This document shows positions 1 to 35,618 of a stretch of 35,618 bases of DNA, piece by piece. The notes under the pieces were generated by a model, which saw only the letters and a list, made by a program, of their open reading frames with translations, was not told where the DNA came from and searched no databases. This DNA is from Nitrosomonadales bacterium. Its GTDB lineage: Bacteria; Pseudomonadota; Gammaproteobacteria; Burkholderiales; Gallionellaceae. Within the stretch, counting starts at the first letter, position 1. Every line of letters begins with the position of its first letter. The stretch spans positions 1 to 35,618 of the forward strand of contig JANXWX010000014.1 of the NCBI GenBank assembly GCA_025350915.1, written 5' to 3'. The position numbers were made by a program, and so were the translations under genes.

Positions 1-86
1 GCTGTATCCTGCTTCGCTTATATGTTGTGGCAACTGATGAAACTCAAAATAAATCAATTAGTCGCGCAAGCTCATGCTTACTCCTT

Positions 87-278
87 TCATAGTTCCTTCG
101 TAATCGCCGAATTGATAGCATTTGCAATTATTAAGAAATACTCCGTGTCTATAACCTGTGAGGGTTCTTTTTTCCCGCCTACCAATATTGTGAGCAGAGT
201 AAATTCTGGGTGCACATGTGCCTGTTCGATGTTTTCACCATCGGTATGCAGGGTAATTGTGAAAGGTTCAAATTTCAT
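87..278 (-). CDS. Small conserved accessory protein (63 aa), left paralogue
   Basis: I do not recognise a function. The chosen ATG (278) follows a clear ribosome site, AGGAGAG, and skips a poorly supported upstream start. The protein begins MKFEPFTITLH and is very similar, residue for residue over about 58 positions, to the product at 33746-33964. The DNA similarity starts in the leader, in a shared pyrimidine-rich stretch before the ribosome site, and stops near the 3' end. It therefore looks like two copies of one mobile unit. It lies downstream of an attC-like site (303-389). It is soluble, with no membrane segment and no cysteine motif. Confidence 0.75.
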   Translation of the reverse strand: MKFEPFTITLHTDGENIEQAHVHPEFTLLTILVGGKKEPSQVIDTEYFLIIANAINSAITKEL

Positions 279-302
279 TTTCTCTCCTCGTAGTAAAAAG
301 AC

Positions 303-389
303 GCACAACCCATCAAGGCTGTATCTCCATTCCGTTTATCATTTGTGGCGGCTTTCATTGGGTTTTAGGGTGCCTATTCTGTGTTGGGC
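303..389 (-). repeat. attC-like recombination site (imperfect, 87 bp)
   Basis: Read on the minus strand it starts with GCCCAAC, fitting the integron R'' box RYYYAAC, and ends with GTTGTGC, a near match to the R' box GTTRRRY. Inner arms ATAGGC and GCCTTGAT can pair with bulges. The site overlaps the 3' end of the 87-aa gene and ends just before the leader of the 63-aa gene, where an integron attC should be. The R' box deviates by one base and the inner stem is weak, so this is the least certain of the three long sites. Confidence 0.4.
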
Positions 390-637
390 GTCGGCTCTGC
401 TAGCTCTACCACCGCCGCCATAATCATCATCATGTCCATGCCAATCAATTCACGTTTTTTGCAAACCTCAGTTGCTACTGCCAGTATGCTTTTTTTGTCA
501 CGGTCTGCTGTCATGCGCAAAATCTTTCCAAGCTCTGCCATGTGCGGCTTATACTTGTCGCCCAACAATCGCCGTGCCTTGTCACGCATGTCATAAAGTT
601 GTGCTGCCATGCTTACTTGCTGTTCAGTTGCCTGCAT
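374..637 (-). CDS. Hypothetical protein, 87 aa, in an attC-bounded unit
   Basis: Function unknown. The ATG at 637 has a GGAGAAC ribosome site. The product is helical and charged, with a Met-rich stretch near residue 70, and has no membrane segment or obvious fold. The unit carrying it begins with GTTGGGCGGC (minus strand, from 666) and its 3' end carries GACGCCCAAC (392-383), complementary at 9 of 10 positions. This is the relationship expected between the two ends of one integron cassette. The reading frame ends within the downstream attC-like site, as in many integron cassettes. Confidence 0.7.
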   Translation of the reverse strand: MQATEQQVSMAAQLYDMRDKARRLLGDKYKPHMAELGKILRMTADRDKKSILAVATEVCKKRELIGMDMMMIMAAVVELAEPTPNTE

Positions 638-659
638 TTTGTTCTCCGTTGAAAAAGCC

Positions 660-720
660 GCCCAACCAGGCGGTCAAGCGGGACTGCCGCAAGCGTCAGC
701 CCCTTACCTCTGCGTTACGC
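660..720 (-). repeat. attC-like integron recombination site (61 bp)
   Basis: Minus-strand order: R'' GCGTAAC, spacer GCAGA, L'' GGTAAGGGGCTG, a 10-nt loop, L' CAGTCCCGCTTGACC, spacer GCCTG, R' GTTGGGC. L'' pairs with L' along its whole length, leaving three single unpaired bases in one arm. These match the extrahelical bases that IntI recombinases use to recognise folded attC strands. The length is in the normal attC range. R'' has one base outside the RYYYAAC consensus. The site overlaps the last codons of the 94-aa membrane gene and precedes the 87-aa gene. Confidence 0.75.
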
Positions 721-980
721 ATCTTGCGGTTAAGCAATCTGGTTAATCTTGGATGTGCCCACATGCTGGTCGTGATGCCAAACGGGCCACCCATGACGAA
801 GGCGGTGATCTCGCTCCAGCTTGCGTGCGGTGCCAGCTTGAACAGCACCATTTGGCTGCTGCCGATGGCAAAACTGGTTAAGGCAGCAGCCCAGTAGTGG
901 CCGTTGTTTACGTTGAGTGATTGCGCGCCGAGGGCAAATACTAGGATGAAGGTGCTGGCAAAGAGGGTGAGTTCGGTCAT
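696..980 (-). CDS. Small inner-membrane protein, 94 aa
   Basis: Two hydrophobic segments (about residues 5-22 and 30-48) and a short third stretch around 58-72 suggest an integral membrane protein with a basic C-terminal tail. The family resembles short proteins seen in early regions of betaproteobacterial phages; I know no function. It is the last gene of the compact PL operon before the attC-like array, and its 3' end runs into the attC-like site at 660-720. The ribosome site is weak (AAAGAAAA). Confidence 0.7.
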   Translation of the reverse strand: MTELTLFASTFILVFALGAQSLNVNNGHYWAAALTSFAIGSSQMVLFKLAPHASWSEITAFVMGGPFGITTSMWAHPRLTRLLNRKMRNAEVRG

Positions 981-4050: not shown

Positions 4051-4389
4051 TTATTGTGTACCGTTGGAGCTTTCTTCTGGTTCAGCAAGCGCAGTGCTAG
4101 TTTTTACAAGTACGTCTTTTTTATATTCAGGCATTGTTTGCATGGCAAAATAAACCGCCATTGCTTTGTGGTCTTTTTTCTTTTCCCCTTTCCCGCTGAT
4201 TATCCATCTGGCTTCAAAATTGGTAATCCTCGCCAATTCAACAAGGTGTTCACCTGCTATTGTCTTTGATAGGCCGTTTATCCATTTATAAACAGCCTGC
4301 ACAGAAATTCCGCATGCTTTTGCTACTTGTTGAACATCAACGCCTGATTCATTAATTGCTTTGGTAACTCGCTCGGACAATGTATTCAT
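4051..4389 (-). CDS. CI-like repressor with XRE helix-turn-helix (112 aa)
   Basis: Starts MNTLSERVTKAINESGVD. The helix-turn-helix lies at about residues 18-40 (VAKACGISVQAVYKWINGLS). The C-terminal part is short, and there is no S24 peptidase domain with Ser-Lys dyad. LexA/RecA-style self-cleavage is therefore unlikely, and induction may rely on another factor such as Rha or Cro. It is divergent from the cro-like gene, with four operator-like sites nearby. No ribosome site precedes this ATG. An in-frame ATG at 4410 lies near the PRM -10 box, so the exact start is uncertain. Confidence 0.85.
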   Translation of the reverse strand: MNTLSERVTKAINESGVDVQQVAKACGISVQAVYKWINGLSKTIAGEHLVELARITNFEARWIISGKGEKKKDHKAMAVYFAMQTMPEYKKDVLVKTSTALAEPEESSNGTQ

Positions 4390-9859: not shown

Positions 9860-10134
9860 CCCGCTTTACACGCCGCCCAAACTTGGACTACCATGCTCCC
9901 GCTGGCACAGATTGCCAGTCGGGTTTGGAAGCCCGAGAGTACGGCGGACAGGCCGCCAGCAAGCGGCCATTTTCACGTTCGTTAGCATCGCACCCAGTTT
10001 GGGCGGCGATGTGGGGAGCCTTCGGGCTCGCCGGTTCCGTCTCCCGGTCTTCCAACCTGCATCGCCGTCCTCCTTCATTTGGAAGTGAGCGAGGATGGCT
10101 TAATCAACCCGATACGGAGATTAACCATGTCTAA
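9856..10134 (+). CDS. Possible Ash-like ORF, 92 aa
   Basis: The frame starts MTRFTRRPN, is Arg/Ser/Gly-rich and low in order. It overlaps the rha start. Such ORFs upstream of phage regulators are often called Ash-family proteins. The same DNA is full of inverted repeats, so the real product may be RNA rather than protein. I cannot tell from sequence alone. Confidence 0.35.
   Translation: MTRFTRRPNLDYHAPAGTDCQSGLEAREYGGQAASKRPFSRSLASHPVWAAMWGAFGLAGSVSRSSNLHRRPPSFGSERGWLNQPDTEINHV
9871..10067 (+). ncRNA. Structured RNA leader upstream of rha
   Basis: A perfect 13-bp pair joins 9871-9883 (CGCCGCCCAAACT) with 9996-10008. A second perfect 8-bp pair joins 10004-10011 (CGGCGATG) with 10060-10067. 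These two share bases 10004-10008 and so exclude each other, as in an attenuator switch. Smaller hairpins occur inside (CTGGC/GCCAG at 9902-9918; GGCGG/CCGCC at 9943-9957). No T-run terminator is visible. Confidence 0.5.
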
Positions 10135-12239: not shown

Positions 12240-12314
12240 GCGTTTTTTAACATTTTTACAACATATTGAATTTATTAAATATTTTACCACGTACCGCACC
12301 ACATGGAGCGCCGC

Positions 12315-14279
12315 ATGAACGCCCCTATTTCACCCTCCGCCCACGCCATCATGGCCACCGCCTGCGCCCGCGCCCTGCGCCCGCGTGAGCGCCTAACCGT
12401 CAGCCAATGGGCAGACCGGCACCGCATCCTCACCAGCAAGCAGTCCGGAGAGGCTGGCCGCTGGCGCACGGCGCGCAACCCCATGCTGCGCGAAATTATG
12501 GATTGCCTGTCGGCTCACTCCACCGTGCGCGAGGTGACGGTGATGAAATCCTCGCAGGTAGGTGTCACTGAAATGTCGGTGAACTGGATCGGCTACATTA
12601 TCGAGCATGCGCATTATCCGGCTATGGTGTTGATGCCCACGCTGGAGAGCCGCGACACCTGGAAGGCACAGAAGCTCAACCCGCTGCTGTCCGATACCGA
12701 ATGCGTGCGCGACATCCTCGGTGGCATCCGCTCGCGCGACGCGACCAACAGCAAAGATATGATCGACTACCCAGGCGGCATCCTGTTCCTGGCGGGCGGC
12801 AATTCGCCAAACAGCTACGCGCAAAAGTCGGTACGCTTTTTGATGCTGGACGATCTCGACCGCTTCCCGATGGTGGTCGGCGATGAGGGTGATCCGGTGG
12901 AGCTGGCGCGTAGTCGCGTAAAGGCCTTCCCGCGCTATAAAATTTTGCTTGCCAGTACGCCCACGCTCAAGGGTGCATCGTTGATCGAGCGCGAATACGA
13001 GGCGGGCGACCAGCGCCGCTACCAGGTGCCGTGCCCGCACTGCGGTGAGCGTCTGGTGCTGCGCTGGAGTAACGTCAAGGCCAACGCGCAGCTCACGGAG
13101 GCATGGTACCAGTGCGAGCATAACGGCTGCATCATTGAAGAGCACTACAAGCCCGCCATGCTGGCGGACGGTATATGGATACCCGAAAAGCCGGAGATAA
13201 AAAACCACCGAAGCTACCACATCAGCGCCATCTACGCCCCAATCGGCCTCGGCCCTTCCTGGCTCGACCTGATGATCCAGTTCAAGCGCGTGCACAAAGA
13301 CCCGCAGCAGCTCAAGACCTTCATCAACTCCAACCTGGGCGAGAGCTGGGAAGACCAAACCAACAAACTCAAACCGCACGACCTCGCCAAGCGCATGGGT
13401 GATCACACCCTCGGCATCATCCCGCCCGGTTGCCTGGCGCTCACCGTCGGCATCGATACCCAAGACAAATGGCTCGCTATCACCATGTTGGGCTGGGGCG
13501 CACCTGCGCACGAAAACGGCCCAGCCAGATTATGGATACTGGACTGGACTGAAATTCAGGGCGATACCACCAACCCCGAAGTATGGAATGAACTAGAGGC
13601 ATATCTCCATCGCCCGCTGCTAAACAGCTTTGGCAAGGAAATAAAAATACGTGCCGCCGCCATCGACTCACGCGGCCACCGCACAGAGCAGGTTAAGGAC
13701 TTCGTCATGCGCACCAGCTTGCGCATCCGTGTGTATTCCGTACAGGGCGCCACCAACCGCATCGGCCGTGCCATCGCCCAGGCCGGCAGCTACCCCAATA
13801 AAAATTATATTGGTAAAGTCATCAAGCATGGCTACTGTGTGTGGAACGTCGGTACTGAGCACTGTAAAGACTTTATCTTTGCCAACCTCGCCGCCGATGG
13901 CGAGCGTATTCCAAGCGATCGCGTTTTTAATTTTCCCCAAGGCCTTGAAGACGAATACTTCAACGGCCTGCTATCCGAAGTCTACGATCCAGAAAAAAAA
14001 CGTTACATCATGCGCATCGGCGCCAAACACAAGCGCAACGAACCGCTGGATACAGCGGTATATGCCTGGGCTATCGGCCACCACCGCGATATAAACATCG
14101 GAAGAGGCAGGGCAGGCAGGCCGGATCCAAAGTATTGGACGCGGCTGGAAGCGATGCTCGAAAGTGGGGAGACGGTAGAGGTACATGAGCCTACAACGCC
14201 ATATATTGCACCGCCTCAGCTAGCCGCCAAGCAATCCAGAAATCGTCCTCGCGTAATCAGGAAGGGACAGCATGATTAA
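12315..14279 (+). CDS. Terminase large subunit, GpA family (654 aa)
   Basis: Packaging ATPase and nuclease. A degenerate Walker A SSQVGVTE is at residues 79-86 and a Walker B-like MLDDLD at about 178-182. A zinc-like pair, CPHC at 240-243 with CEHNGC at 267-272, is typical of the lambda gpA family. The C-terminal half is the nuclease, with acidic residues in TVGIDTQDK and AAAIDSRG. The ATG at 12315 is chosen because GGAG lies 7 bases upstream; ATG 12303 is an alternative. GpA terminases cut at cos, so cohesive ends are expected. The first 66 bp are duplicated at 11074. Confidence 0.92.
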   Translation: MNAPISPSAHAIMATACARALRPRERLTVSQWADRHRILTSKQSGEAGRWRTARNPMLREIMDCLSAHSTVREVTVMKSSQVGVTEMSVNWIGYIIEHAHYPAMVLMPTLESRDTWKAQKLNPLLSDTECVRDILGGIRSRDATNSKDMIDYPGGILFLAGGNSPNSYAQKSVRFLMLDDLDRFPMVVGDEGDPVELARSRVKAFPRYKILLASTPTLKGASLIEREYEAGDQRRYQVPCPHCGERLVLRWSNVKANAQLTEAWYQCEHNGCIIEEHYKPAMLADGIWIPEKPEIKNHRSYHISAIYAPIGLGPSWLDLMIQFKRVHKDPQQLKTFINSNLGESWEDQTNKLKPHDLAKRMGDHTLGIIPPGCLALTVGIDTQDKWLAITMLGWGAPAHENGPARLWILDWTEIQGDTTNPEVWNELEAYLHRPLLNSFGKEIKIRAAAIDSRGHRTEQVKDFVMRTSLRIRVYSVQGATNRIGRAIAQAGSYPNKNYIGKVIKHGYCVWNVGTEHCKDFIFANLAADGERIPSDRVFNFPQGLEDEYFNGLLSEVYDPEKKRYIMRIGAKHKRNEPLDTAVYAWAIGHHRDINIGRGRAGRPDPKYWTRLEAMLESGETVEVHEPTTPYIAPPQLAAKQSRNRPRVIRKGQHD

Positions 14280-30945: not shown

Positions 30946-31038
30946 CCATCAAGGGCGAATTGCGGAGCAACATTAAAATTGCGGAGCAGACTGACGGCTT
31001 TTTGATCTAGAATTCGTGCCGCAACTTATTGAATTGTT

Positions 31039-31096
31039 TGGTGCCCGGGACCGGAATTGAACCGGTATGACCATTACAGTCGAGGGATTTTAAGTC
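31039..31096 (-). other. att core: 3' part of tRNA-Leu (TAA)
   Basis: On the minus strand, the sequence from GGACTTAAAATCCC through the variable arm and T-arm ACCGG/CCGGT to the acceptor CCCGGGC and ACCA matches the 3' part of a bacterial tRNA-Leu. The 5' half of the tRNA is missing; unrelated AT-rich DNA replaces it. The phage thus probably integrates into tRNA-Leu and restores its 3' end. The exact crossover is not visible. Confidence 0.85.
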
Positions 31097-31163
31097 CGCA
31101 TTCAAATTTAAATAAAACATTAGCTTAGATCAAAAACCGCTCCGCAAAATCTATTTTTTCGCG

Positions 31164-31201
31164 CCCCGCAAGCCTTATTCTTGCGGGGCTTTCTTTTTTT
31201 T
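31164..31201 (+). terminator. Strong Rho-independent terminator
   Basis: CCCCGCAAG and CTTGCGGGG form a 9-bp stem with a 7-nt loop, followed by a long pyrimidine/T tract. It points rightward and would stop late transcription before it runs into the oppositely directed integrase gene. It is nested between the 17-bp inverted arm sites. Confidence 0.9.
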
Positions 31202-31278
31202 GCGGAGCGGTTTTATTTTGTTTTTTATGTAATTTCAGCGGCCCATGCGCCACGCATTTTTTCGGAACTTGTCAAGCG

Positions 31279-32313
31279 TTATTTTGTGGGTGTTACTTTT
31301 TTCCCGATCCTATCCCGCACATAGTGCTCGGTCATCGTAATTGTGGTGTGGCCAAGCTGGTCTTGTGCCTGGCGAATATCGCCGGTGGATTCGGCCTTGT
31401 CGGTTGCGGCTTTGGCGCGAATATCCCGTAGCTGGAATTTATCTTTGTCGATGCCAGCGGCAGTGCGCGCAGTGTCGAAGTGCCCGCACAGCATGTGATA
31501 GGTGAAGGGCTGGCCGTTGGCATCTATCACGAGGTGCAGGCTGTGCACTTTGAAAGTAGACTTGCGCAGGCGGATGCGTTCGACCAGGCTGGCCAGCTCG
31601 CCCTCGATGCTGATGCGCAGCTTCTTGCCGGTCTTGCGCTGCTTGACGTGCAGCAGGCCGTCTTTGATATCGGTCTCGGTCATGCCGAGCATGTCTGATG
31701 GCCGCTGGCCGGTGAGGTAGGCGAGATCCAACGCGTCTCGAAGCGGCTGACTGGCCAGCTGGTGCACAGCGCGGAACATATCATCCTCGATGTAAACGTC
31801 TGCGCGGCCTTTTTCGCTAAAACCTTTGATGCCGGCGCAGGGGTTGGGCTGGTCGGTATAGCCCCAGTTTCTGGCCATGTTCCAGATGTGGCTGAACAGG
31901 GCCTTTTCGCGGTTAGCGCGGGTTTTTGCGGCCTTGCGCCAGTCCATATACTGGCGGATGTGCAGGGGCTTGATGCCATCGAGTGGGGCGGGTGGGTTGT
32001 CAAAAAACTGGTAGAGATTGGCCAGCTCGCGCAGGTTGTCTTTTTGCGTAGCCGGCGCTTTACCGGGAAGCATCTCGCGGATGTAGCGTTCGGCGGCATT
32101 GCGGAAGGTGATGATGGCGCTGGACATGGCCTGGTCGATCTGTAGCTCTGCCCACTTCTTGATCGCCAGCGCATAGTCGCTGCCCAGGGGAATTTCCTTG
32201 CGCGGCTTGCCGCCGGCATCAAAATAATAAAACGTTTGCTTCCAGCGCGTGCGGGCGCGCATACGGGATGGAAGGTTGAGGTTTTTGGTCGGTTTGCGTC
32301 CCATGGCAGGCAT
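31279..32313 (-). CDS. int: Phage integrase, tyrosine recombinase (344 aa)
   Basis: Inserts the phage at tRNA-Leu. The start at 32313 has GGAGGTAGT; the longer frame upstream is rejected. The N-terminal basic arm-binding region (1-45) is followed by a SAM-like core-binding domain (about 75-165) and the catalytic domain. Catalytic residues: Arg204 (TGQRPSD), Lys227, Arg299 (LRDIRAKA), His322 (LGHTTITM) and Tyr331. The position normally His before the second Arg is Arg296, as in a known phage subgroup. It is unlike integron integrases, which carry an extra helix insert. Confidence 0.93.
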   Translation of the reverse strand: MPAMGRKPTKNLNLPSRMRARTRWKQTFYYFDAGGKPRKEIPLGSDYALAIKKWAELQIDQAMSSAIITFRNAAERYIREMLPGKAPATQKDNLRELANLYQFFDNPPAPLDGIKPLHIRQYMDWRKAAKTRANREKALFSHIWNMARNWGYTDQPNPCAGIKGFSEKGRADVYIEDDMFRAVHQLASQPLRDALDLAYLTGQRPSDMLGMTETDIKDGLLHVKQRKTGKKLRISIEGELASLVERIRLRKSTFKVHSLHLVIDANGQPFTYHMLCGHFDTARTAAGIDKDKFQLRDIRAKAATDKAESTGDIRQAQDQLGHTTITMTEHYVRDRIGKKVTPTK

Positions 32314-33112: not shown

Positions 33113-33143
33113 GCCTAACCTGGCGCTCAACTATGCGTTATGT
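33113..33143 (-). repeat. Short attC-like site (31 bp), copy 1
   Basis: On the minus strand it runs from ACATAAC, GCATAG and GAGCG to R' GTTAGGC. It matches the 31-bp site at 33755-33785 at about two-thirds of positions, with identical spacing of the end boxes. Compared with the two full sites it lacks the inner stem. It overlaps the stop of the methyltransferase and precedes the 76-aa gene. Confidence 0.5.
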
Positions 33144-33749
33144 CAAAAACATCGCTATTTGTGCTGTCGCTTGCTCAAATCTCTTCTTAGCTGCTTCAAA
33201 ATAATCCTTGTCCAACTCGCACCCAACAAAATCAACCCCAAAATAGTGCGCGGCTATCGCACTGCTTCCGCTGCCGAGGTGTGTATCTAAAATCTTTTGC
33301 CCAGGCTTCGCATAGTTTGTTAAAAGCCATTCATAGAGCTTTATTGGTTTCTGGCAAACATGGATTCTTTTCTCTGTTGTATTTCTAATATGCTTAAAAA
33401 TCTTTGCATTCCTATCCATCGAAGTCCATGCCATCTCGCAATCTGCAAGAGTGTCCATGTGTGCAACTTTGTCCCAAATCAAAAAACATCTTGTCGGTGG
33501 CAAGTCAAAATAATTTCCACCCCAAACAATCTGATCCTTGCTTACCCTGCGAAGCTCATCAAAAAACTGCCTTCTAGGGGCAACGTCCCATGCAGAATCT
33601 GCCTTTGTCAGTTTCGCTGCCCATGTTCCACCGTTTGTTATTTTTTCCCCAAGACCATACGGCGGGTCAACAATCGCCAGATCAAAAGCTTTGTCTGGTA
33701 ATATTGCCATGTATGCCATGCAATCTATGTTCAAAAGTTCTATGCTCAC
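33138..33749 (-). CDS. Orphan DNA adenine/cytosine-N4 methyltransferase (203 aa)
   Basis: Class beta amino-methyltransferase: catalytic DPPY at 28-31 comes before the AdoMet-binding DTHLGSGSS at 155-163. There is no partner endonuclease nearby, so it is orphan. It may protect phage DNA from host restriction or regulate promoters. It is flanked by the two short attC-like sites, so it looks like a mobile cassette gene. The target sequence cannot be read from the protein. Confidence 0.88.
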   Translation of the reverse strand: MSIELLNIDCMAYMAILPDKAFDLAIVDPPYGLGEKITNGGTWAAKLTKADSAWDVAPRRQFFDELRRVSKDQIVWGGNYFDLPPTRCFLIWDKVAHMDTLADCEMAWTSMDRNAKIFKHIRNTTEKRIHVCQKPIKLYEWLLTNYAKPGQKILDTHLGSGSSAIAAHYFGVDFVGCELDKDYFEAAKKRFEQATAQIAMFLT

Positions 33750-33964
33750 TCTCGCCCTAACCCGTCGCTCGTGTTTGCGTTATCCGTCATCGCCGAATTG
33801 ACAGCATTTGCAATTATTAAGAAATACTTCGTGTCTATCACACGTGAGGGTTCTTTTGTCCCGCCTACCGACATCGTAAGCATAGTAAGTTCTGGGTGCA
33901 CATGTGCTTGTTCGATGCTTTCACCATCGTTATGCAGGGTAATTGTGAAAGGTTCAAATTCCAT
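33746..33964 (-). CDS. Small conserved accessory protein (72 aa), right paralogue
   Basis: Close homologue of the product at 87-278; it starts MEFEPFTITLH with an AGGATAG site. The similarity ends near residue 59, after which this copy runs into its attC-like tail (NANTSDGLGRE). The unit carrying it starts GTTATCCGTC (33995-33986) and ends GACGGATAAC (33788-33779), a perfect 10-bp complement. Function unknown; soluble. Confidence 0.75.
   Translation of the reverse strand: MEFEPFTITLHNDGESIEQAHVHPELTMLTMSVGGTKEPSRVIDTKYFLIIANAVNSAMTDNANTSDGLGRE
33755..33785 (-). repeat. Short attC-like site (31 bp), copy 2
   Basis: On the minus strand: R'' GGATAAC, GCAAAC, GAGCG and R' GTTAGGG. It lies over the 3' end of the right paralogue and just before the methyltransferase start. 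Its R'' is complementary to the R' at the start of the same unit (33995). It resembles 33113-33143. Confidence 0.55.
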
Positions 33965-33988
33965 TTTCTATCCTCGTAGTAAAAAGAC

Positions 33989-34044
33989 GGATAACCCGTC
34001 AATCAACCCGGACAGCTTCGCTGCCGGTGACTTCTGCGTTAAGC
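33989..34044 (-). repeat. attC-like integron recombination site (56 bp)
   Basis: Minus-strand order: R'' GCTTAAC (fits RYYYAAC exactly), spacer GCAGA, L'' AGTCACCGGCAGC, loop GAA, L' GCTGTCCGGGTTGATT, spacer, R' GTTATCC. L'' and L' pair over their length with an unpaired T and a short bulge. This gives an attC-like hairpin with extrahelical bases. It overlaps the end of the 95-aa gene and precedes the right paralogue unit. Confidence 0.7.
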
Positions 34045-34286
34045 GCCGAACAATCCCAGGCTTTATTGAATGCCCATATTGCTTTACGCGGGGTTTCCCC
34101 AAAGCCACAAATACCAGATTGAATATTATCTCCGTGCAAAACACACCAACGGTTTTCGTTCTGGAAAAGTCTCGGCTTTAGAATTGCAAACAAAGTCATT
34201 TCTTCCGCTTCCACTGCGGCATTAAGTCTGCTTTGCCCTATCTTGTCTTCCCAGAATATTTGTCGTATTTCAGCTTCATTCATCAT
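33999..34286 (-). CDS. Hypothetical protein, 95 aa
   Basis: MMNEAEIRQIFWEDKIGQSR start, with AGAGGTGAATT as ribosome site (second ATG possible). The centre, NRWCVLHGDNIQSGICGFGE, followed by TPRKAIWAFNKAW, looks like a compact alpha/beta fold of the type seen in small phage proteins. The 3' end runs into the attC-like site at 33989-34044. Function unknown. Confidence 0.7.
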   Translation of the reverse strand: MMNEAEIRQIFWEDKIGQSRLNAAVEAEEMTLFAILKPRLFQNENRWCVLHGDNIQSGICGFGETPRKAIWAFNKAWDCSALNAEVTGSEAVRVD

Positions 34287-34470: not shown

Positions 34471-34550
34471 TATCTTCCCTTTCTTCGATTATTTCCCAAG
34501 CATGCGTTCAACTCGAACCATGCAATATCATATTTCTCTGTTACCAACAT
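34470..34550 (-). CDS. Possible 26-aa ORF
   Basis: MLVTEKYDIAWFELNACLGN start with GGAGATAAAATC as ribosome site. The frame is short but is linked by overlaps to the next two small ORFs. No domain. Confidence 0.4.
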   Translation of the reverse strand: MLVTEKYDIAWFELNACLGNNRRKGR

Positions 34551-34554
34551 GATT

Positions 34555-34779
34555 TTATCTCCGAGGTAATCTGCCTGCTAATAGCAGCGGCCTGCCGCTT
34601 ATCTTTGCGTTCGGCACCCGCCATGCTTGCCATGCGACCAATAGCGCAAAACTCTGAAACCAGCTTCTATCAACAGCCACACCCCAGTTTGGGGCATCCT
34701 TGAAAAAATACTGGTACGAAAAGTTTGCTATCACCATCGACAATATTGTAGTCATTACTTGAATCCAGTTATTCCGCAT
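34555..34779 (-). CDS. Small single-span membrane protein, 74 aa
   Basis: The ATG at 34779 has a GGGGG-rich site. A hydrophobic segment (about residues 8-25) and a second, weaker one (about 42-52) are followed by a basic tail that reads through an attC-like motif: GCCGAACGCAAAG, then AGCGG/CCGCT. The tail may therefore be partly a by-product of the recombination site. Function unknown. Confidence 0.6.
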   Translation of the reverse strand: MRNNWIQVMTTILSMVIANFSYQYFFKDAPNWGVAVDRSWFQSFALLVAWQAWRVPNAKISGRPLLLAGRLPRR

Positions 34780-34787
34780 TACACCCC

Positions 34788-34859
34788 CTATTGTTTAGTA
34801 ACCAACCTGACAAATTCAATCACTTCAGCAGGCAATCCATCTACCAAGAACTCATCCAC
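34788..34859 (-). CDS. Possible 23-aa ORF (GTG start)
   Basis: Reads MDEFLVDGLPAEVIEFVRLV if GTG is the start. The ribosome site is weak. It looks protein-like and fills the gap between two larger genes of the same strand. Confidence 0.35.
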   Translation of the reverse strand: MDEFLVDGLPAEVIEFVRLVTKQ

Positions 34860-34879
34860 TCTTTAGTTATTGATATACG

Positions 34880-35143
34880 CTATGCGTTAGGAATGATTGG
34901 TTTTACTTCCAGTATTTCCATTTTATTGTCGAGTGCCTCTTGCCAACATTCAGCGCAAGCAGGAAGTTCCTCAATTTTTTCTTGTTCCACTCTCAATACG
35001 ACAATCGCATTGTTGTCACATTGCGCCCATTTAACAGGCCCGAATGTGAATGCTCCCCCGTAGCGTCTCCAACCCTCGCATCTCATCCCTAACCCTACGG
35101 TCAAGTCGCCAGCGTCTCTGTTTTCGGTTTGTGATTGTTCCAT
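34880..35143 (-). CDS. Hypothetical protein, 87 aa
   Basis: The ATG at 35143 has AAGGAGTGATAAAA; an upstream GTG is less likely. It is acidic, with a Trp-rich centre (MRCEGWRRYGGAFTFGPVKW) and a CAEC pair near residue 64 that might bind a metal ion. The 3' end carries CCTAACGCATAG, like the attC-like starts. Function unknown. Confidence 0.65.
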   Translation of the reverse strand: MEQSQTENRDAGDLTVGLGMRCEGWRRYGGAFTFGPVKWAQCDNNAIVVLRVEQEKIEELPACAECWQEALDNKMEILEVKPIIPNA

Positions 35144-35187
35144 TTTTATCACTCCTTTTTAGTTGTTGATCGGTTGCCGAACTTTAA

Positions 35188-35334
35188 TCACGACTCGTTT
35201 CTTTCTAAACCTTGGCATTCCGGTTCTTCGGCAGCATGGCAGTTAATTTCTCCGCAGAGTTGACACTCGGTATGGGTCAATGCCGATAACGGTCCCTTCC
35301 AAATAACTACTCCACCACATATGCTACAAATCAT
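35188..35334 (-). CDS. Small zinc-ribbon protein, 48 aa
   Basis: MICSICGGVVIWKGPLSALT start, with a first CSIC pair (3-6) and a second CQLC pair (24-27), typical of a zinc ribbon; further Cys at 32 and 40. The site AAGGAAGCTGTA is good. It is too short to be an enzyme and probably acts as a nucleic-acid or protein-binding element. Function unknown. Confidence 0.7.
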   Translation of the reverse strand: MICSICGGVVIWKGPLSALTHTECQLCGEINCHAAEEPECQGLERNES

Positions 35335-35421
35335 TACAGCTTCCTTTCTTCTTTAAAGTTGCGTTATTTTATCGCTGTTTTGGTTATAACGCGTAAAATT
35401 CCATAGCTACTCCAAGCATCT

Positions 35422-35618
35422 CTATCTGTCTCTATCTCTATCTATATAACAACGCATTTCAGCAATATGGTCTCTGAGGGACTCATGCTGTCTTTCAACT
35501 TCCGCTTCCAGTCTTTTAACTTCGTTTTCAAGCCTTTCAATCACCGGGCGCATCGCATCTTCAAATTCTTGGCGTTGCTGTAATGCCAAAGCCTTTTCCA
35601 AACAAGGCTTACATAACA
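35422..35618 (-). CDS. Partial coiled-coil protein, cut by the window edge (at least 65 aa)
   Basis: The frame is open at the right edge. It begins here with LCKPCLEKALALQQRQEFED and has a CxxC pair, then a strongly heptad-patterned helix (IERLENEVKRLEAEVERQHE). It ends in a repeat of DRDRDR encoded by a TCTATC microsatellite. If the molecule is circular, the start would lie at the left edge, but no ATG is in this frame there. A TTG or an internal ATG is then possible. Confidence 0.5.
   Translation of the reverse strand, partial: LCKPCLEKALALQQRQEFEDAMRPVIERLENEVKRLEAEVERQHESLRDHIAEMRCYIDRDRDR

Follow-up and report, generated by a model that had tools for sequence, protein, structure and literature searches.

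Gene cassettes of the integron type were found in a contig with the gene set of a temperate phage, and their genes lie inverted relative to the attC sites that bound them. The contig (the window, 35,618 bp, analysed over its entire length) comes from a 2.97 Mb draft genome. The flipped layout recurs in dozens of other viruses, and some of these encode an integron integrase (IntI), which suggests that viruses run a separate version of integron gene swapping. In our assessment it is likely that the window belongs to a phage-specific integron lineage as a partly decayed member without IntI, with its cassettes read from the phage left operon.

The window as a temperate phage

The genes of the window include those for a large terminase subunit (12303-14279, plus strand; phrog_15, 1e-196), portal, capsid, tape measure, primase, repressor (4051-4389, minus strand; phrog_2328, 1e-12), endolysin and integrase (31279-32313, minus strand; phrog_1, 7e-44). 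Terminase, portal, capsid, integrase, repressor and an attP site, the marks of a temperate tailed phage, were all present. The attP core, 59 bp on the minus strand (31039-31097), is identical at 59/59 positions to the 3' end of a host tRNA-Leu, and four TTGCGGAGC arm repeats, the only copies in the window, lie on both sides of the core (30960-31208). Because this attP is intact and integration through it would split it, the contig is most simply read as an unintegrated phage, and we regard it as probably temperate and not integrated. A C4 antisense RNA was also detected at 9996-10075, between the small and large terminase genes (Rfam RF01695, 58.7 bits), as was a tRNA-Met gene on the minus strand at 2714-2789, in the phage left operon. 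In the host, an integrase-like gene of another element directly follows the tRNA-Leu that matches the phage core (L011 5090-6005, G000:C232), so this attachment site looks already occupied.

attC sites in the window

Sites were searched for with two covariance models, R1, trained on 33 attC sites from the host's family with phage sequence excluded from training, and R2, built from 95 sites of phages that encode IntI; the E-values of the models are rough. An intact attC was found at 660-720, with 52.8 bits under R1 (E=2e-11, 55 kb searched) and 58.8 bits under R2 (E=1.5e-13). Its boxes on the plus strand are R'' GCCCAAC, L'' GGTcAAGcGGGaCTG, L' CAG-CCC-CTTACC and R' GTTACGC, and one arm has three single unpaired bases. 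A sequence-only reading of this DNA had described a complete attC-like fold here, which the models bear out. It had proposed to run them on the minus strand; the match is significant, but the canonical attC lies on the plus strand, with the minus strand as the folding, or bottom, strand. Folding of 660-720 as single-stranded DNA, which that reading had also proposed, gave no complete attC fold (best z -2.7, on the minus strand); the evidence for the site therefore comes from the covariance models.

Another attC lies on the plus strand at 33989-34044 (R2 39.3 bits, E=2.4e-8; R1 E=3.6e-4). Two decayed sites without the central hairpin were found at 33113-33143 (R2 E=0.0013) and 33755-33785 (R2 E=0.0075), and two doubtful remnants at 34494-34615 (R2 E=0.2) and 303-389 (R2 E=0.47), the latter with an R' box at 383-389 that opens the next cassette; all four are on the plus strand. 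Every R1 match with E<=5 was on this strand and inside the array regions, and unfiltered R2 gave just one sub-threshold match outside them (E=0.96). The sites at 33113, 33755 and 33989 fall inside 1 kb (R2 E<0.01), as in a CALIN, which has at least two attC sites within a few kb; two of this trio are decayed, and the 660-720 site is at the opposite contig end. With two good sites only, and two others lacking the hairpin, the window array may now be largely inert.

No intI was found in the window, as had been claimed from the sequence: the best match to the IntI model in this unclosed contig, 21 bits, lies inside the phage integrase. Nor was an attI of phage type found in the window, and the pair that makes a complete integron, intI and attI, was seen instead in related phages. 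Since the contig is unclosed and both of its ends lie within the array, cassettes or an intI could be missing.

The cassette array

The array extends from a holin-like phage gene at its border (696-980, minus strand; phrog_7045, 2e-9), whose 3' end overlaps the 660-720 attC, across the contig ends to the integrase, and its right-hand part occupies 32.6-35.6 kb. All of its genes are on the minus strand, in agreement with the single gene direction proposed earlier. The proposal that a phage accessory region holds a cassette array of the integron type was also right. The sequence-only reading had overlooked that the genes are inverted relative to attC and that several sites are decayed. The left part that it described is real, but its continuation at 32.6-35.6 kb and the IntI of the host had escaped it.

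One cassette runs from the TT of R' to the G of its own attC (384-714, plus strand), and its ends pair at 7/7 positions, GTTGGGC (383-389) with GCCCAAC (660-666). Another (33780-34038, plus strand) also pairs at 7/7, GTTATCC (33779-33785) with GGATAAC (33989-33995), and is duplicated at 99-316 with 90% identity. The inner gene is inverted in both, and the complementarity of cassette ends claimed before thus holds in two window cassettes. Among the cassette genes, all on the minus strand, the one at 374-637 is of unknown function and has relatives in four viral contigs, one of which adjoins an attC of the same polarity. A gene at 87-278, also of unknown function, was identified by gene calling, and its near-copy at 33746-33964 by gene calling and the alignment of the duplicate. 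The 3' end of a further called gene (33999-34286) runs into an attC. A DNA methyltransferase gene (33138-33719; Pfam N6_N4_Mtase, 2e-16) has its stop codon inside an R' box, and its best matches are in CALIN-type phages, TJE1 among them. These window genes are antisense to attC, and so depart from the usual, though not universal, arrangement of integron cassettes, in which the gene is sense.

A second contig of the same genome, C116, has its own attC array with genes on the minus strand and shares array pieces with the window, and one block of homology between them stops exactly at the R' box at 383-389. C116 appears to be a phage, mainly from one head-protein match (phrog_9953); the terminase- and portal-sized neighbours of that gene gave no match. 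We also observed scattered collinear matches between window positions 34798-35618 and L029 16020-16760, both from phage contigs, with a gene deleted in the window copy.

Cassette polarity in viruses and hosts

One pattern scan of IMG/VR returned 63 stretches with such attC sites, from contigs that IMG/VR classes as viral automatically; the phage gene sets of G036 and of the window are clear. R1 found 285 sites across 69 searched sources, almost all viral, and one phage attC searched in 50,697 deposited phages gave no match. Where a viral contig held several of the 150 best sites, they were on a single strand (38/38 contigs).

Gene orientation was taken from our own codon-bias gene caller; a count from longest open reading frames had come to about 50:50, because shadow frames beat short genes, and was discarded. 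The genes that neighbour attC in viral contigs were antisense in 257 cases and sense in 4, with antisense polarity in 61/62 contigs. In host integrons beside IntI, by contrast, 106 were sense and 22 antisense. Both counts come from the same attC model, so this contrast is independent of how orientation is named. Mixed polarity was seen at IntI loci from named genomes (130 sense, 52 antisense), with weaker gene calls. The phage gene typically starts 14-29 nt outside R'', and its stop codon is commonly on the TTA of the R' box. This inverted polarity of phage cassettes appears to be new. The host genome of the window encodes an intact IntI with adjoining attC, and in the two of its chromosomal arrays that we checked the genes are sense to attC.

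The contig might be host chromosome, with a prophage inside a chromosomal integron and host DNA as the flanking cassettes, since the host has such an integron and cassette-like DNA of one direction stands at both contig ends. However, the intact attP with arm repeats on both sides indicates that the phage is not integrated through attP, the cassette genes, in contrast to those of host cassettes, are antisense to attC, and the same layout recurs within many viral contigs. We rejected this explanation as very improbable. The near identity of some phage and host attC sequences might also point to passive capture of an ordinary host cassette block, with no phage-specific pool and no selection for polarity, as might the excess of IntI-less over IntI-bearing phages in the attC scan (full IntI in 3/50 records, many of which are fragments). 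Genes stay sense to attC when a block is captured or is inverted as a whole, so the antisense polarity of 61 of the 62 contigs cannot arise in this way, and the phage IntI proteins form a clade of their own. Passive capture was likewise rejected, and we hold it to be highly unlikely.

Phages with intI and attI

IntI relatives were encoded by 53 viral contigs. The attC sites of these contigs have normal integron geometry in 93/95 cases, and their cassette genes are inverted in 171 cases versus sense in 4. A phage IntI clade comprising 27 of the proteins has support 99/94, and the IntI of the host family falls outside this main phage clade. In a wider quick tree the clade has support 84, and the genome contigs inside it are two only, one of them a prophage. 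Just before intI there is a conserved phage attI, with constant sequence to its right and wholly variable sequence to its left, and at most loci the R'' of the first cassette matches the attI R box at a fixed position. A search for R'' partners anywhere near intI has a background of 0.54 and is by itself unspecific; the case for attI is made from the fixed position together with the conserved alignment. One IntI-bearing phage, G036, encodes terminase, portal, tail proteins and integrase, and another phage with intI and an array has a TerL 72% identical to that of the window.

Virus Rctr41k (KX853513; L153 4680-5678) encodes an IntI relative, annotated as xerD and co-directional with its neighbours, and R1 gave no attC match in this virus. 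In a host-family genome (L141, G113:C86), an IntI near the phage clade was seen to adjoin transposition genes that are perhaps Tn7-like.

Cassette exchange and cargo

Complementarity of R' and R'' within a cassette is, judged from sequence, the mark expected of units that were once circular. Its mean was 6.26/7 in 66 phage cassettes and 5.29 after shuffling, with a value as high in 0/2000 shuffles, so the shuffled control proposed in the sequence-only reading came out in favour of true cassette ends. A further figure for phage arrays was 6.51/7 versus 4.96 shuffled (0/2000), and both phage values come close to the 6.68 of host integrons. Site-by-site comparison of pairs with one neighbour in common and the other different showed that homology parts at G|TT. 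Enrichment of BLAST match ends at G|TT was also tried, but 70 ends were too few, and the site-by-site comparison was used instead. An attC body stays with the gene that begins beside it: median body identity was 0.76, against 0.63 for pairs with the other neighbour in common and 0.60 in the background.

These results bear on whether the sites are instead regulatory hairpins, or patches of homology for the shuffling of early genes. The PeSL shuffling cassettes of T4-type phages likewise occupy a variable part of the phage genome, where hairpins separate small early genes, and the sites described here sit among small early genes, beside ribosome-binding sites. The T4 PeSL cassettes, however, are without attC boxes, attI or integrase. 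In both sequence and structure the phage sites agree with attC sites of host integrons, their cassettes have complementary R' and R'', homology breaks at G|TT, and related phages have intI with attI. We rejected the hairpin explanation as very unlikely and read the sites as attC.

We scanned 126 cassette proteins, most of which were without any match. Those recognised were mainly DNA methyltransferases and Mom-type DNA modification proteins, with one Lar anti-restriction protein. Such cargo fits counter-defence, and we infer that the cassettes serve this role.

Proposed mechanism

We propose that the window is a temperate lambda-like phage, apparently of a Gallionellaceae-type betaproteobacterium, in which an attC-bounded cassette array has been set between left-operon phage genes and the integrase. 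Each cassette holds an inverted gene, with attC immediately ahead of the start codon and a stop codon that falls inside the R' box or close to it, and the array would be transcribed leftward as a single operon from a promoter of the phage, not from an integron Pc. In cassette exchange, as predicted from the sites, an integron integrase would cut the R' box at G|TT, with the bottom strand folded. Since the window phage is without IntI, the enzyme would have to act in trans, supplied either by the chromosomal integron of the host or by a co-infecting phage from the lineage that bears IntI. The window phage seems to have retained the array without intI, its sites now decaying.

In bacterial integrons, intI has one promoter and the cassettes another, and their transcription is separate. 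In the related phages, with their intI, attI and inverted cassettes, intI stands last in the operon of the cassettes, and one promoter at the far operon end would serve the cassettes and then intI. If intI is read from a phage promoter in this way, canonical cassettes would be misdirected, and inverted ones alone would be useful or expressed. Polarity might instead be favoured because it lessens the harm that attC does to translation or transcription, or because it makes the coding strand the one that folds, and not by promoter position. With attC directly before each start codon its RNA fold would matter, but host cassettes, of opposite polarity, are expressed. This explanation seems unlikely to us as the cause, and it is compatible with the promoter-based reading that we prefer.

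More broadly, we think it more likely than not that betaproteobacterial phages run their own integron economy, with a dedicated IntI clade and attI. Their pool of inverted cassettes would share its recombination chemistry with the host but be silent in host integrons, and vice versa, so that polarity separates two gene pools, and through the phage pool unrelated phages would trade early genes, those for anti-restriction among them. Integrons are known as gene banks of bacteria, and phage examples to date have the look of captured pieces. If a phage lineage does have its own integrase, attI and flipped cassettes, the same machine would serve phage early genes. Such a lineage would allow a direct test of whether promoter placement dictates cassette polarity, a test of cassette birth, a long-standing question, and a mechanism for fast, precise swaps of anti-restriction genes between unrelated phages.

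Comparison with known systems

As in the phage integrons, intI in the integrons of Spirochaetota is co-directional with the cassette genes. There it is the integrase gene that is flipped, whereas in the phages intI and attC have their normal geometry and it is the cassette genes that are turned round. The reversed intI of Spirochaetota integrons has been noted (PMC9668308).

The sequence-only reading knew of no such arrays in phages, but attC arrays without IntI have already been published: Qi et al. 2023 (PMC9892861) reported 17 of these CALINs in 10,705 phage genomes, together with four temperate-phage integrons or In0 elements. In their experiments IntI1 used 5/6 tested phage attC sites. 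The window resembles their CALINs as an IntI-less attC array in a phage and in its methyltransferase cargo, whereas inverted polarity, a phage intI clade and a phage attI are absent from their description, which gives the typical cassette direction for TJE1 and PH101. With our models, their phages TJE1 and M16-3 gave weak attC matches of sense polarity. A search of the open literature, with preprints and most subscription journals outside its scope, returned no paper that describes inverted cassettes or a clade of phage IntI.

The chromosomal integrons of the host family share their attC sequences, R'/R'' signature and IntI family with the phage arrays. They differ in that their genes are sense to attC and point away from intI, and in that their IntI lies outside the main phage clade. 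A lone attC was also seen in the host chromosome, after an apparently truncated response-regulator gene (L030 4438-4500, G000:C181).
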